Assembly (NCBI GenBank): GCA_027343665.1
Contig: DAHWKL010000001.1
Span: 1 to 46,769 of the forward strand
Source of the DNA: an archaeon
GTDB taxonomy: Archaea > Nanobdellota > Nanobdellia > Pacearchaeales > GW2011-AR1
Length of the DNA: 46,769 nt
Reading direction: 5' to 3'
Shown: positions 5,040-26,850 of the stretch, piece after piece
Numbering within the stretch: the first letter of the stretch is position 1
How the letters are laid out: each line of letters opens with the position of its first letter
Position numbers and translations under genes: made by a program
The notes under the pieces: model-generated
Database searches by the model: none
Seen by the model: the letters and a program-made list of their open reading frames with translations, nothing else
What the model was told of the DNA's origin: nothing

Positions 5040-6185
5040 ATGGAAAACACAGATGAAAGGTCATTTTTGAAGATAAATTTCAGTATCAATCCCTCAGATG
5101 AGTTGTTTAAACGCCTGTCTTTCCCGAATTCCGAAGTCAAAAGGATAGCTTTCAAGGAGAAAAATGGATTCTTTTATAGGTTCAATTTTGAAACCTCCTT
5201 TGATTATTTGGGAAAGACTGAGAAAATTCTGAATACAATATATCTTTTCAATGGAAAACCTATAAAAGGGGATCTTTCAGAATACTCAGTCACCGAAGGG
5301 AATGAAAAAGAAATAAAGGTTCCGGACTATAAGAATGATTATTTTCTTGCAAAAGAAGAATTGAAGAAGCTCGTTCAAGGGAAAACGAATGAAATATCAA
5401 GGATGCTTCGCGGTTATTTGGATAAAGAAAAGGAAAAGATAGAGGAGAATTTTATTTCGGAGACTAAAAAGTTCAGGAATAACTTAGGTGGTATTGCCGA
5501 AAAACTTATGGAATTTTCGAAAAGCGGAGATATAGAAAAAATAAAAGAACAAAAAAAACTTATAAACTCTCTTCGTGAAGAAATGAACTTTGATGAGATC
5601 GAAAAAGATAAAACCCGGGCGTTGCAGCTTGAGAGCCAAAAGCATCTTTTGAATGTTGAAAATAAACTGATAAAAACGACGATAATCTATTATCCAGTAT
5701 ACACCTTTTCTTTAGAAGCTGTGAAGGCTGGTATAAGGAAATCATTTAATCTGCAGTATGATCCTGTTTCAGAAAATGTCTCTGGCCTCTTATGTGAAAA
5801 CTGTTCTGATGAGATGCGCGAAGTTATAATATGCAATTCCGGACATGCTGTCTGCAAAGATTGTGTGAGACTATGTGATTCATGTAAAAAGGAGTTTTGC
5901 AAAAAATGTCTGCGGAATTCGTGTGAAATCTGCTCGAAGAAAATCTGCAAAGACTGTTCAGTAAGATGTTTTAGATGTTCAAGGGTGGTATGCAAGGATC
6001 ACACAAGGCAGGACAAGCTTTCAGGATATTTTTATTGCAAAGATTGTTCAAGACGCTGCGATAAATGCGGGAACCTGAAAGATCCGTTTACTTTCAAAGT
6101 GAGCAAGATGAACAATCGCGAGATATGTGAAGACTGTTTCAGGGAAGAGACAAAAGAAAGCATTGTTGGCGGAATTTTTGAGTGA
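5040..6185 (+). CDS. Coiled-coil protein with 22-cysteine zinc-binding C-terminus
   Basis: A 381-residue cytoplasmic protein with no signal or membrane segment. Residues 1-100 are a mixed alpha/beta domain of unknown type. Residues 100-215 are charged and helical, likely a coiled coil. From residue 252 to the end lie 22 cysteines plus His, mostly in CxxC pairs (CENC, CKDC, CDSC, CKKC, CEIC, CFRC, CDKC, CEDC). They form a chain of zinc knuckles resembling RING, B-box or LIM folds, though I cannot assign one. Such arrays usually mediate protein or nucleic-acid contacts. The leaderless start is supported by a TATA box 25 bases upstream. The next gene converges, leaving one base between the stops. 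Confidence 0.65.
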   Translation: MENTDERSFLKINFSINPSDELFKRLSFPNSEVKRIAFKEKNGFFYRFNFETSFDYLGKTEKILNTIYLFNGKPIKGDLSEYSVTEGNEKEIKVPDYKNDYFLAKEELKKLVQGKTNEISRMLRGYLDKEKEKIEENFISETKKFRNNLGGIAEKLMEFSKSGDIEKIKEQKKLINSLREEMNFDEIEKDKTRALQLESQKHLLNVENKLIKTTIIYYPVYTFSLEAVKAGIRKSFNLQYDPVSENVSGLLCENCSDEMREVIICNSGHAVCKDCVRLCDSCKKEFCKKCLRNSCEICSKKICKDCSVRCFRCSRVVCKDHTRQDKLSGYFYCKDCSRRCDKCGNLKDPFTFKVSKMNNREICEDCFREETKESIVGGIFE

Positions 6186-6186
6186 A

Positions 6187-6888
6187 TCATTTGTATCTCC
6201 AAAAGATCTCTTTGATCTTCTCCTCTCCGCATATTTTTGCGGTTTCCCATTTGGCTGTACTAAGATAAATCTCTTCTGGGCAAAAATTTTTTACAAAATT
6301 TGCAACTCCAAGAATAGATTCCCCTGTTGCGATTAAATCTTCCATGATCAATATCTCTTTATCTTTAATATCATTCTTCAAATCTTTCTTATAACACTCA
6401 GGGATGTATGGACTTCTGTCAGAATATTTCAGGACAGAATATCTTATAGGTATTATCCCCTGTCTTGAGTTTAAAAGAAGCGCAGGCTCGAATCCGCCGT
6501 TCATAACAGGTATGATCACATCAAATTCAGAAGTTTTCATTTCCAGCATAAATCTTTTTACAAGATCCTCATCGTCTTTAAGGTGTCTTTGATATATTGG
6601 ACGATATGATTCTAGGTTTATCTTTTTTTCAAGAAATTTCCTAATTTCTTTTTTGATTATCCCGAATTCAAGATTATCCTTATAAAAACCCATGACGCCA
6701 AACTTTGCTATCTCAATAAGCTCATCCATAGTCCTTCTTTCAAGGTTCAATGGATATTCTTTTCTTTCATTTTCGTCTGTTTCAGAAATCATCCTGAAGA
6801 CAGCACTCGAAAGGTTCAAAAGACTGTTTTTCATCTCTAAAGGACTGTCTTCTTCATCGAAAGTTTTGATCCAATCTGAATTATCCAT
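6187..6888 (-). CDS. Type I phosphoribosyltransferase-like protein
   Basis: A 233-residue protein. Residues 122-212 carry the phosphoribosyltransferase fold, with a beta strand FDVIIPVMNGG (residues 122-132) and the PRPP-binding loop ILIMEDLIATGESI (179-192). The usual Asp-Asp or Glu-Asp pair and the Thr-Gly-x-Ser phosphate loop are intact. The N-terminal 110 residues are helical and match nothing I know, so the substrate base cannot be named; salvage of a purine or pyrimidine, or a regulatory role, are both possible. The gene starts one base after the stop of the upstream helicase gene on the same strand, which indicates co-transcription and perhaps a role in DNA repair or nucleotide supply. 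Confidence 0.65.
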   Translation of the reverse strand: MDNSDWIKTFDEEDSPLEMKNSLLNLSSAVFRMISETDENERKEYPLNLERRTMDELIEIAKFGVMGFYKDNLEFGIIKKEIRKFLEKKINLESYRPIYQRHLKDDEDLVKRFMLEMKTSEFDVIIPVMNGGFEPALLLNSRQGIIPIRYSVLKYSDRSPYIPECYKKDLKNDIKDKEILIMEDLIATGESILGVANFVKNFCPEEIYLSTAKWETAKICGEEKIKEIFWRYK

Positions 6889-22976: not shown

Positions 22977-23675
22977 ATGAAAAGAATAAATTATCTTACT
23001 ATGGCAGCTGCATTTTGGACGGCTTTCCTGTCAGCGCCAAAGGCAAAAGCTCAAAATTATGATTCATTAAAAACTGTAGAAGTTGCTAATGATCTTGAGG
23101 GTAAGGGATTCAGGAATCTTAATGGTTACATTCTTGGCAAGCCTTTCCAGCTTCAAGTGGACTACAATGGAAATTCTGCAGTTGTGAACTGCCCCGTAGT
23201 AGGCCAAAGGCAGGATAATGATACATTAATGCAATATCCTTTTTTTGTTATATTCAATAAATCAGATTCTACTTCATTGGCAGATGCAAATTCTATAAAT
23301 GGTTTCGGAGCTTATGCGATAGTGCTCAACGATAATAAAATCTCCCCATTAACTTATGTAGATTCGATAGCAAAAGTTCTCAAAGGAACTCCGGATGCAG
23401 TTGTCGAGACTCCACGCAAAAAGAATCTTGAATCAAGACTTTTAGGAATATACCCTAATCCCACTAACGGAGAAATCAATGTTAATTACAACCTCCTTCC
23501 TAATTTAAGGAGTGTCAGGTTCACAGTCTACAATATTCTGGGTCAAGAGGTTTATCAAAAGGATGGGAAAGGTGAAGGAGTCGAGAATCTGGACCTGAAT
23601 GGCCTGCCCTCAGGAACATATTTCCTGAGGATGACTCCGTCAGATGATATTGAGAAATTTATGATCCTGAAGTAA
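22977..23675 (+). CDS. Secreted protein with Bacteroidetes-type T9SS C-terminal sorting domain
   Basis: A 232-residue protein. It has a bacterial-type signal peptide with an Ala-x-Ala site (residues 1-25, KAKA before QNYDS). The middle domain (30-140) is unrecognised. Residues 158-232 match the type A sorting domain of the type IX secretion system: IYPNPTNGEINV, VYNILGQEVY, a DLNGLPSGTYFLRM strand and a KFMILK end, all in order and spacing. In Bacteroidetes this tail directs export across the outer membrane. No T9SS component is seen here and archaea have no such membrane, so the domain is probably transferred and re-used. The gene follows the previous one by a single base, arguing against an assembly chimera. 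Confidence 0.75.
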   Translation: MKRINYLTMAAAFWTAFLSAPKAKAQNYDSLKTVEVANDLEGKGFRNLNGYILGKPFQLQVDYNGNSAVVNCPVVGQRQDNDTLMQYPFFVIFNKSDSTSLADANSINGFGAYAIVLNDNKISPLTYVDSIAKVLKGTPDAVVETPRKKNLESRLLGIYPNPTNGEINVNYNLLPNLRSVRFTVYNILGQEVYQKDGKGEGVENLDLNGLPSGTYFLRMTPSDDIEKFMILK

Positions 23676-23684
23676 ACTGTTTTT

Positions 23685-24788
23685 ATGAACATAATAAATA
23701 TGGCAAAGTCAATAAAATCTAAAATGAAAAAGCTGGGGTATCTTTTGCCTATTATTCTATTTCTGAATCCATCGAGTGCGAATGCACAATTCAAGTCAGA
23801 TGCAAATAGGTATAATTTTGACATTAAAAGCAAATACATTGATCTAAATGTCGGAGATCCTTTTGGCCTCAACGAAGGCGCAAACATAAGGGGAATCCTG
23901 AAGCTTAAATATAACGACAATTCAATTTATTTTATAAGGAATGGCTTGTTTAATTATTATTATGGCGGTGAAGCAGATATAAAGTGGTTTGATGCTTACC
24001 ATAACGAGTCCAGACAAAATTTGACGGCAGAGAACATAACCGCGCAAAGTTCTCCAATCGGAAATGTTACGACGAAAACGACGCTCCTCAATCATGATCG
24101 CGCCAATGAATCCGGGTTTATTCTTAAGTATGACACTTTTTTTGCTGGTTTTGAAAATTCAGCTGATAAAAACCATATAGATGGCGAGACAGTAGTAGAT
24201 TTTGGTGGACAAAGAAGTTCAAGTCAATATTCTTTGGATCTTGGGAGCATAACAGACATTTACGAGGCAGGATTTAAATACGGCTCTGCAAAACTTATAA
24301 GAAATGAGCAGAATGGAAATGTTTTTTACAATTATCTTCTGAAAGCTGATTGTGAAGGACTTAACCTTTACTACGGAAAAAGTCTTGCGGGTTTTTTGAG
24401 CGCCAGACTTTTCGACAAAGTTGATGTGGATGTAAGTTATGACAAGACTTTAAAATTCACCTTCGCTACTTCTGATTATTCAGAATTAAACAGGAGAGAT
24501 TTTGAGACTAATCTCGAGAACAGGCTTAGGGCAGTTCCAAGAATATATAACTCTAATCTCGAGACACAAAGATCTTATCTTGAGGATATGTTTTTCACGA
24601 AAGGATACAATTTCTCGATAAGCCAAGACAATGTAACCTTTAATGTAAGTTCTCCGGATTTAGGACCTGCAAAAGCGCTTTTTCATTATTCAAATGATAG
24701 TCAGCAAATTGGATTAAAGTTAGGGCCGGCGATTGCAACCTATGATTTTCATGATAGAAAAGCTATGGTTGGCGTTTTCATAAAGTGA
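23685..24788 (+). CDS. Secreted beta-strand-rich protein, possibly barrel-like
   Basis: A 367-residue protein with an N-terminal signal (cut after SSANA, near residue 34). The mature part is made of alternating polar/hydrophobic strands separated by short turns, from about residue 170 to the end (for example AGFKYGSAKLIR, GLNLYYGKSLAGFLSARLF and KVDVDVSYDKTLKFTFATS), recalling outer-membrane barrels of Gram-negative bacteria. It lies 9 bases after the T9SS-tailed gene and is probably the last gene of the operon. The archaeal context makes a true outer-membrane barrel unlikely. A secreted beta protein or a transferred gene are alternatives. No family is identified. Confidence 0.5.
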   Translation: MNIINMAKSIKSKMKKLGYLLPIILFLNPSSANAQFKSDANRYNFDIKSKYIDLNVGDPFGLNEGANIRGILKLKYNDNSIYFIRNGLFNYYYGGEADIKWFDAYHNESRQNLTAENITAQSSPIGNVTTKTTLLNHDRANESGFILKYDTFFAGFENSADKNHIDGETVVDFGGQRSSSQYSLDLGSITDIYEAGFKYGSAKLIRNEQNGNVFYNYLLKADCEGLNLYYGKSLAGFLSARLFDKVDVDVSYDKTLKFTFATSDYSELNRRDFETNLENRLRAVPRIYNSNLETQRSYLEDMFFTKGYNFSISQDNVTFNVSSPDLGPAKALFHYSNDSQQIGLKLGPAIATYDFHDRKAMVGVFIK

Positions 24789-24792
24789 TGCT

Positions 24793-25140
24793 TTAGCAAA
24801 AGATTTTCTCTGAATTAATTATTGTTCTGTAAATCCTGTCCATTTCAATTATGGTCTCAAAAACAGAATCCATTGCTGCAAGTTTTGCAAGCTTTCCTCT
24901 TTCTTCAATTGATTCATTGTTATAATTTCTGTAGTTGTTATTTACAAGATTCGCGAAATTATCATCTGAGGCCTTGAGATAATAATCAAACAATTCATTG
25001 CTCATAGGTTTTCCGAAAAGGCGTTCATGGAGATTCCAAAGGTAATCAAATCTTCCGTTCTCATTGAAACTTTTCCAGGCTCTTTCTATCTCTTGCCCCC
25101 AATCAAGGTATTTTACGCCTTCGTCAGTTTCTCCATGCAT
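24793..25140 (-). CDS. Tandem helical family, member 5
   Basis: A 115-residue soluble protein, the last of five consecutive minus-strand paralogues. It carries the family core RFDYLWNLHERLFGKPMS (about 35-52), preceded by an AWKSF segment matching the W of the other members. A helical C-terminal part (KLAAMDSVFETIIEMDRIY) corresponds to the AI-DTQRMMY segment of member 3. It overlaps member 4 by 17 bases. There is no catalytic motif, signal or membrane segment. The function is unknown. Confidence 0.6.
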   Translation of the reverse strand: MHGETDEGVKYLDWGQEIERAWKSFNENGRFDYLWNLHERLFGKPMSNELFDYYLKASDDNFANLVNNNYRNYNNESIEERGKLAKLAAMDSVFETIIEMDRIYRTIINSEKIFC

Positions 25141-25447
25141 AAATTTCCTCCATTATGCAATCATCATGCATCTCTTTTTCTGTCTGGATAATTGAAAGCC
25201 CTTTTGAAATGACTTCTCCTTCACCTCTGCCTCTGTAAAATTCATATCTTAATTCTGAAAATTTTACGTAATATTCTTTCAGTTTTCTGCCAAAAATTTT
25301 GAAATGAGCAGATGATAAATACCTGATGGCTTCGTCAAATTTTACAGCTTCCCATACATCAGGATTTGCCTGACGTAGCATCGCATTTCCGATTATATCT
25401 TTGAAATGATCCTCTTTTTTCGATTTTTTCTCAAGTCCGCCATTCAT
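25124..25447 (-). CDS. Tandem helical family, member 4
   Basis: A 107-residue soluble helical protein. Its core NPDVWEAVKFDEAIRYLS then AHFKIFGRKL (about 28-55) aligns with PDIW...L..KHKKLFGKDL of member 2 and PGIW...L..AHEDLFHEPL of member 3. The C-terminal SIIQTEKEMHDD helix matches as well. It is one base downstream of member 3 and overlaps member 5 by 17 bases, so translation is probably coupled. No function is known to me. Confidence 0.6.
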   Translation of the reverse strand: MNGGLEKKSKKEDHFKDIIGNAMLRQANPDVWEAVKFDEAIRYLSSAHFKIFGRKLKEYYVKFSELRYEFYRGRGEGEVISKGLSIIQTEKEMHDDCIMEEIYAWRN

Positions 25448-25448
25448 T

Positions 25449-25817
25449 TCATTTGCCTCCGTTAATATCTATGAAATGCGATATTGCTTCGGCATTGTCC
25501 CATATTTCCTGATACATCATTCTTTGAGTGTCAATTATTGCCCTGCATTTCGATAGTTTTTCTATCTTGCCGGTGGAATCGTAGATTATTTGGTAAAATT
25601 TCTTGTAAGAATTATATTTGTCCAAGAGGTAATTCAAATGCTCGTCGTTGAGTGGTTCATGGAAAAGATCTTCATGGGCTTTTTCAAGGGAACTTATCTC
25701 TTCGTGAGAATCTATCATCTGCCATATTCCTGGAACCCACTTCAGAAGTTTTTCATCTTCTTCAAATATTCCAGCACTATTTTCTTCAAGCTTCATAATA
25801 TCCTTCCATATCTTCAT
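25449..25817 (-). CDS. Tandem helical family, member 3
   Basis: A 122-residue soluble helical protein. It has the complete family pattern: WVPGIWQMI, then ISSLEKAHEDLFHEPLND, a YLLDKY segment, and the C-terminal helix with AIIDTQRMMYQEIW. The ATG at 25817 gives a 32-base overlap with member 2. An internal ATG at 25796 (MKLEENSAG) shortens this to 11 bases and may be the real start. It is followed after one base by member 4. Confidence 0.6.
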   Translation of the reverse strand: MKIWKDIMKLEENSAGIFEEDEKLLKWVPGIWQMIDSHEEISSLEKAHEDLFHEPLNDEHLNYLLDKYNSYKKFYQIIYDSTGKIEKLSKCRAIIDTQRMMYQEIWDNAEAISHFIDINGGK

Positions 25818-26166
25818 AATCCGGCCCGAAGATTCTCAGAAGATCATATTTTTCTTTTTTCATATGATGATAATCAAAATACATCTTTTCTTGGGCATCT
25901 CTTACAGCTTTTACCTTCGCCATCATTTCTATTTTTTCTCCAGACTCTGTAGGCGGATTTGCAATATATCCTCTGGAATATTCTTCCTTCTTGTCCAGAA
26001 TCAGGTTTACGTATCTATCATCCAAATCCTTCCCGAAAAGTTTTTTGTGTTTTTCATTCAGATAAGCAAATTCTTTCTTCTCTTGCACACAAAGCCATAT
26101 ATCCGGAAGATTCTTTTTGAGTTTTTCCCATTCCGGAACAGCTCTTGACCTCTTTTCAAGATTCAT
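25786..26166 (-). CDS. Tandem helical family, member 2
   Basis: A 126-residue soluble helical protein. The core is NLPDIWLCVQ, then FAYLNEKHKKLFGKDLDD with YVNLIL (about 20-55), followed by EKIEMMAKVKAVRDAQEKMY, which aligns with the end of member 3. The start at 26166 overlaps the stop of member 1 in an ATGA arrangement. The His in KHKKLF and the Leu/Phe pair after it are the best-conserved positions of the family. No known domain is recognised. Confidence 0.6.
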   Translation of the reverse strand: MNLEKRSRAVPEWEKLKKNLPDIWLCVQEKKEFAYLNEKHKKLFGKDLDDRYVNLILDKKEEYSRGYIANPPTESGEKIEMMAKVKAVRDAQEKMYFDYHHMKKEKYDLLRIFGPDYEDMEGYYEA

Positions 26167-26774
26167 CTGCGCTTTCTCAGGATATACTCCTTACCATCTT
26201 TTGATTGTCTGTCATGATCTTCTCCCATTTTTTTCAGGGTTTCAACAAGGGCTTTTTTCTTTGATTCAGCGTCGCTGTATTCTTTTTTTATATAAAAAGA
26301 CCAGCGGTTTAAGAGATGATTTATATAATCATCTTTAAGCTTGTTTTTGAACAGCCCATAATGGATGTCTTCAAGAAATTCAATCATCTTTCCTTTTGTG
26401 ACGCTCTCTTCTGCTGCGCTTTCAAGAGAGGCAGGTCTTTTTACTGATTTGGTGTGTTTTGCTGGGTTCTTTGATTTTAACCATCTCTCTATGAAATAGT
26501 CTTCGTTCATCTTTCTTATCGTATAATATGCAGCTTCTGATGACCTCAGACTTTTTTCTATCTCCGGTTTCATCTGCCTAAAGTACATTTCAAGGAAATA
26601 ATTTATGTACTCTTCCTGTATTGATGTTGAGAAAAGGCCTTCGTGCGTTTTATCAAGTAAGTCCAAAAGCTTATTTTCTTCTATGCTTTTTCTGATCTGT
26701 ATATTCAGTTCGCCGAGTTCTTTGGAGCTGAATTCAAAATGAACAGATTCATCAAGCTTCCTTTCGGTTGGCAT
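26163..26774 (-). CDS. Tandem helical family, member 1 (two domain copies)
   Basis: A 203-residue protein, the first gene of the five-gene set. It holds two copies of the family core, LLDLLDKTHEGLFSTSIQ with YINYFL (about 36-62) and MIEFLEDIHYGLFKNKLKDD with YINHLL (about 129-155). A basic, low-complexity linker around residues 100-115 joins them. A TATA-like AAAAAATTAAAAACT lies about 26 bases before the ATG at 26774 and could drive the whole group. The gene ends in ATGA overlap with member 2. There is no signal peptide, membrane helix or catalytic motif. The function is unknown. Confidence 0.6.
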   Translation of the reverse strand: MPTERKLDESVHFEFSSKELGELNIQIRKSIEENKLLDLLDKTHEGLFSTSIQEEYINYFLEMYFRQMKPEIEKSLRSSEAAYYTIRKMNEDYFIERWLKSKNPAKHTKSVKRPASLESAAEESVTKGKMIEFLEDIHYGLFKNKLKDDYINHLLNRWSFYIKKEYSDAESKKKALVETLKKMGEDHDRQSKDGKEYILRKRR

Positions 26775-26850
26775 TGTTCTATCTTGTTATTTAGAGTTTT
26801 TAATTTTTTATATTCTGACTGGAGACTTTAATCCGGTGATTTTACATACA

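Follow-up and report, generated by a model that had tools for sequence, protein, structure and literature searches.

A tandem array of paralogous genes encoding a small helical domain without recognized relatives in DPANN archaea

Array genes and their repeated domain

The window (the whole stretch of DNA analyzed, 46,769 nt) carries five intact, tightly packed genes on the minus strand at 24793-26774, read from 26774 down to 24793; the first-pass annotation had named no strand. Their products comprise six homologous copies of a domain of ~90 residues, two in the first protein and one in each of the others, an arrangement that the open reading frames (ORFs) confirm as the first-pass annotation described it. 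The features are as follows, with the orthologs of genome G095 (L023), from the same genus.

26795..26815, minus strand: putative archaeal TATA-box region AATATAAAAAATTAAAAAC upstream of p1, from sequence inspection
26163..26774, minus strand: p1, ORF of 203 aa with two domain copies (approximately residues 17-101 and 117-202); ortholog L023 8305-8919
25786..26166, minus strand: p2, ORF of 126 aa, single domain (leave-one-out E 8e-15); ortholog L023 8916-9281
25449..25817, minus strand: p3, ORF of 122 aa as listed, single domain, modeled; ortholog L023 9262-9606
25124..25447, minus strand: p4, ORF of 107 aa, single domain; ortholog L023 9624-9968
24793..25140, minus strand: p5, ORF of 115 aa, single domain, the most divergent member (leave-one-out E 7.5e-7); ortholog L023 9958-10308

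As listed, neighboring genes share 4 to 32 nt, with the exception of p3 and p4, which are separated by one base; the gene spacing had been correctly noted from the outset. The p2 start codon lies within a 4-nt ATGA overlap with the p1 stop. For p3, an ATG at 25796 (MKLEE..., 115 aa) is a likelier start than 25817, because it is preceded by GGAAGGA and because the resulting N-terminus resembles those of other members (MNLEK, MSLEK, MGLEE). Shine-Dalgarno-like GGAGG sequences are located 8 nt before the ATG of p4 and 6 nt before that of p5. The overlapping genes, together with the Shine-Dalgarno-like sites before p3, p4, and p5, favor joint translation. The TATA-like stretch upstream of p1 is similar to one that precedes the array of another genome of the genus, G160 (GATATAAAATATTAAAAAC), which makes a single promoter for all five genes, as stated at first pass, plausible.

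Profiles built from five copies recovered the sixth in all six cases, which places the copies in a new domain family: held-out copies score 29.5-55.0 bits (E 8e-15 to 7.5e-7) in a search set of 20,006 sequences, including 20,000 shuffles, the best of which reaches 17.0 bits. The core [LMF]-x3-H-x2-[LI]-F-x3-[LMI]-x3-[YHL] matches all six window copies, and the rough consensus of 17 copies reads IW ... E-x3-L-x3-H-x2-LF-x2-PL-x3-Y-x2-Y-x-LD-x-Y-x2-Y ... G-x5-SK-x2-A-x3-T-x2-KM-x2-D. The first-pass annotation was right about a six-copy repeat in which strong divergence leaves a core intact, as sequence comparison bears out; the motif that it gave matches none of the copies as written. Three residues rather than four separate the L/M position from the Tyr, a place taken by His in p3 and by Leu in p5; the L/M position is Ile in p1a; and the Trp is missing from both p1 copies. 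The array proteins are soluble as judged from sequence, and no long hydrophobic or transmembrane segment is found in them (maximum Kyte-Doolittle mean over 19-residue windows, 0.66), in agreement with the absence of membrane segments claimed earlier.

The domain was said to be unrecognized, and it is so in every library searched. Membership in a known family was accepted for a whole-protein score above the curated cut-off, or for a consistent match common to several members; Pfam-A, NCBIfam, PHROGs, and PADLOC gave no credible match (best single E 0.0019 to 0.03), the best database matches nearly always fell in a different family for each array member, and all Pfam and NCBIfam matches in the first searches lay below the cut-offs. 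For known defense or anti-defense components, PADLOC returned only E 0.0047 and 0.0071, for one member each. A profile search of PDB sequences reached a best E of 0.18, Foldseek comparison of the p3 and p1 models with the PDB best E values of 1.0 and 1.6, and comparison of the p3 model with viral structures a best E of 0.32. A known domain or fold was rejected, the top fold matches being insignificant and unrelated to one another. Third in the fold list is 2pmr, a protein of unknown function that is small, all-helical, and archaeal, like the array domain; it too was rejected (E 2.4, TM-score 0.23/0.30) and was missed by the PDB sequence profile search. Literature searches found no published description of the array or the domain.

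In models that used the family alignment, p3 is predicted to be all-helical with one further N-terminal helix (pLDDT 84.4, pTM 0.72), and p1 to form two successive four-helix units (pLDDT 84.3, pTM 0.50), with helices at residues 17-32, 36-48, 54-66, and 74-101 in the first unit and 117-126, 130-142, 148-163, and 168-202 in the second. The low pTM of p1 means that the relative arrangement of its halves is not fixed by the model. Judged by secondary structure and model confidence, p3 and both p1 halves are predicted to have the same four-helix arrangement, so that the shared fold anticipated at first pass holds for the modeled members. Neither of the two outcomes named at first pass as refuting, a match to a known domain or the lack of a common fold, was observed. 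The all-helical fold, the basic second domain of p1 (pI 9.5), and a basic extra copy in G095 (g6, pI 8.9) would suit nucleic-acid-binding regulators, i.e., small helical DNA or RNA binders. We consider this improbable: the majority of members have an acidic or neutral pI (4.8-6.8), their Pfam matches include no recurring helix-turn-helix family, and Foldseek returns nothing significant.

Distribution, orthology, and selection

The same tandem array was sought in related genomes, as the first-pass annotation had proposed, and was found in three of the 11 genomes of the genus: the window genome (812 kb in 10 contigs, 88% complete), which has six domains at this locus and in which no further copies were found; G095, where six genes (L023 8305-10668) encode seven domains; and G160, whose array consists of three genes with one domain each (L024 1115-2100). 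Many of the compared genomes are incomplete (G160 is 75% complete), so single absences are weak. The domain was found solely within one family of DPANN (Nanoarchaeota) genomes, a span narrower than the archaeal proteomes named at first pass. Two genomes of another genus of this family encode a single, very divergent copy each:

L044:1480-1752: single-copy relative in G103, 90 aa
L085:1468-1959: single-copy relative in G062, 163 aa

A search of 200 genomes detected the first of these relatives at a per-genome E of 2.9e-4, and the reverse search from it returned a G160 array gene (E 0.0026) and the G062 protein (E 5e-9). The two share with the array domain the core order FLE ... P ... LD.Y ... 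G..D..S.K..AL.K.. and reciprocal profile or sequence matches, but differ in being one gene each, outside any tandem array, and in keeping the L-x3-H-x2-LF core incompletely. On these modest scores, they are likely to be homologous to the array domain. Searches at class and phylum level (378 and 371 genomes, in sets that may overlap) added nothing convincing. Weak profile matches in G074, G104, G091, G132, G150, G046, G028, and G439 were judged to be noise, because they are short and several cross stop codons, with others lying inside or antisense to long ORFs. Single-protein scans of public genome contigs matched the G095 contig alone.

A maximum-likelihood tree joins each window copy to the G095 copy at the corresponding position (w1a-g1a, w1b-g1b, w2-g2, w3-g3, w4-g4, and w5-g5), with bootstrap support of 83-100 for the pairs, two of which pass the strict double threshold. 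G160 copies do not group with particular window copies, and two of them pair together (86/88). The six one-to-one positional pairs indicate that the duplications predate the species split; most likely, the copies arose before the window and G095 lineages separated and have not been homogenized since, and the expansion is old, as had been proposed.

Array orthologs of the window and G095 share 27-53% amino acid identity, compared with 58-86% for the seven flanking orthologs taken as the baseline, and the array proteins diverge faster than all seven (Mann-Whitney one-sided p 0.003). Identity is 47% for p1, 53% for p3 over the full-length alignment, and 27% for p5; by local alignment, it is 62% for p1a, 57% for p3, and 26-31% for p5. 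In each of the five genes, differences are more frequent at third codon positions (0.52-0.68) than at first and second positions (0.24-0.47), which points to purifying selection on the frames and upholds the earlier view that the copies are selected. Because dS is saturated, positive selection cannot be claimed despite the fast divergence. An old tandem amplification that drifts near-neutrally, without a specific role, would account for an array that is lineage-restricted, fast-evolving, and dispensable; we regard it as extremely unlikely, given that all five frames stay open across two species despite saturated synonymous sites, and given the third-position excess in every gene.

Genomic surroundings and mobility

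A conserved block of four genes for secreted proteins (642, 500, 232, and 367 aa) faces the array tail to tail in both the window and G095; in the window, 4 bp separate the end of p5 from the stop codon of the 367-aa gene, which is convergent with it. This adjacency might suggest that the array proteins are cytosolic chaperones or partners of the secreted block. That model was rejected as very improbable, since array and block dissociate: G163 has the block without any array, and in G160 the array is present and the 367-aa gene was not found (in a genome 75% complete). The convergent orientation also means that array and block are not co-transcribed.

The secreted block and its surroundings have features of their own. 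The 232-aa protein (window 22977-23675, plus strand) has a C-terminal sorting domain for type IX secretion (Por_Secre_tail, E 2e-14), and its orthologs (G095 L023 11773-12471; G163 L082 6924-7628) without exception belong to the corresponding four-gene block; such sorting tails are known from Bacteroidota. The 367-aa protein (window 23685-24788, plus strand) has a likely signal peptide and no Pfam match; it occurs in three of the 11 genomes of the genus, with 58% and 47% identity to the other two, and is always last in the block. Elsewhere on L023, G095 encodes a 500-aa protein (5210-6712, plus strand) that combines one membrane-like segment with a TonB C-terminal domain (PF03544, E 2.5e-18), which would not be expected of a DPANN archaeon. 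Immediately upstream of the array in this genome is a gene for a 229-aa protein (L023 7568-8257, plus strand), possibly methyltransferase-like by eye and without a Pfam match, whose family occurs in six of the 11 genomes, with two copies in two of these. A link between this protein and the array was rejected, as it has homologs in five array-less genomes and none in the window genome.

G163 provides a natural empty site: the next gene starts 42 bp past the secreted block. In G160, the array is at another site, between tRNA-Asp and a glucoamylase-like gene; in the window and G095 this gene ends 63-70 bp from tRNA-Asp with no array between them. AATTTTATTTTTAAACCTTGTGAT, a conserved sequence that precedes the tRNA, is unbroken in G160, where the array follows it. 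A 16-nt piece of the tRNA-Asp 5' end (TTAGACCACTTGGGCA, L024 928-943) recurs 55 bp on (983-998) beside this array, and is possibly the trace of a recombination event. The empty site in G163 and the different site in G160 indicate more than one gain, loss, or move of the array among these genomes and, on this comparison of loci, mark it as an accessory, dispensable cassette. The array does not lie in a recognizable defense island or mobile element, the neighbors being NRAMP, DtxR, BacA, and secreted proteins, and no integrase was recognized beside it.

Patchy presence (three of 11 genomes), the empty and alternative sites, variable copy number, and divergence faster than that of all seven flanking genes would be expected if the members were separate binders or inhibitors, each with its own partner, that act in conflicts involving mobile elements, viruses, or the host cell, much as small, diversified interference proteins from an accessory cassette would. 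This explanation is possible, if on balance doubtful: the PADLOC and PHROGs matches are no better than noise, the queries tried returned no relative from viral contigs, phages, or plasmids, the GC content of the array (0.358) is close to that of the window (0.371), and order and orthology are stable between the window and G095.

Possible roles of the array

Both system-level readings offered by the first-pass annotation, a set of interacting subunits and a rapidly diversifying recognition family, are conjectural. We tentatively favor, at somewhat less than an even chance, a translationally coupled set of putative cytosolic protein-binding subunits that co-assemble. The four-helix domain would serve as a protein-binding module, duplicates of which became specialized subunits that are made together and might co-assemble, either as a small cytosolic hetero-oligomer or as a scaffold on a common partner. 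In this scheme, p3 and the two-domain p1 would represent the conserved core, and p4, p5, and the extra gene of G095 a variable periphery; the unequal conservation (highest in p1a and p3, lowest in p5) fits this division. Predicted helical bundles that lack a conserved catalytic set and a membrane segment suggest binding rather than catalysis. The largely conserved His, which may have a functional and not a structural role, counts against this explanation.

The one-to-one positional orthology in two genomes implies that each copy keeps its own identity, in the absence of homogenization or random turnover, and this ordered orthology between the window and G095 ranks a hetero-oligomer somewhat above independent binders. 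The variable gene set of G160 and the patchy presence nevertheless keep independent binders a strong rival. A complex of fixed composition fits poorly, as the G160 genes have no clear orthologs and the number of domains varies (six, seven, and three), and any complex must be dispensable, since most genomes of the genus yielded no such operon. A bolder version of the co-assembling subunits, which we hold to be rather unlikely, is an accessory molecular machine not described before: a relocatable DPANN operon that, by duplication, turned an ancestral four-helix domain into six to seven domains' worth of ordered, specialized subunits, which would act on or against a partner, for example the host cell or viruses that infect it.

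Lineage-specific orphan proteins that form tandem arrays of paralogs occur in archaea, and DPANN orphan genes are mostly unexplained. The array described here resembles this general class in its short, co-directional paralogs without a known domain, its narrow clade, and its patchy presence; it differs in the one-to-one gene order that two species have in common and in the second genomic site that the array of a third species occupies. Having a compact domain without a recognized relative, ordered ancient paralogs, a natural empty site, and a second-site array in a third genome makes the family testable. If the copies do not co-assemble, it would be another narrow orphan paralog array; if they do, it would represent an accessory multi-subunit assembly in DPANN archaea.
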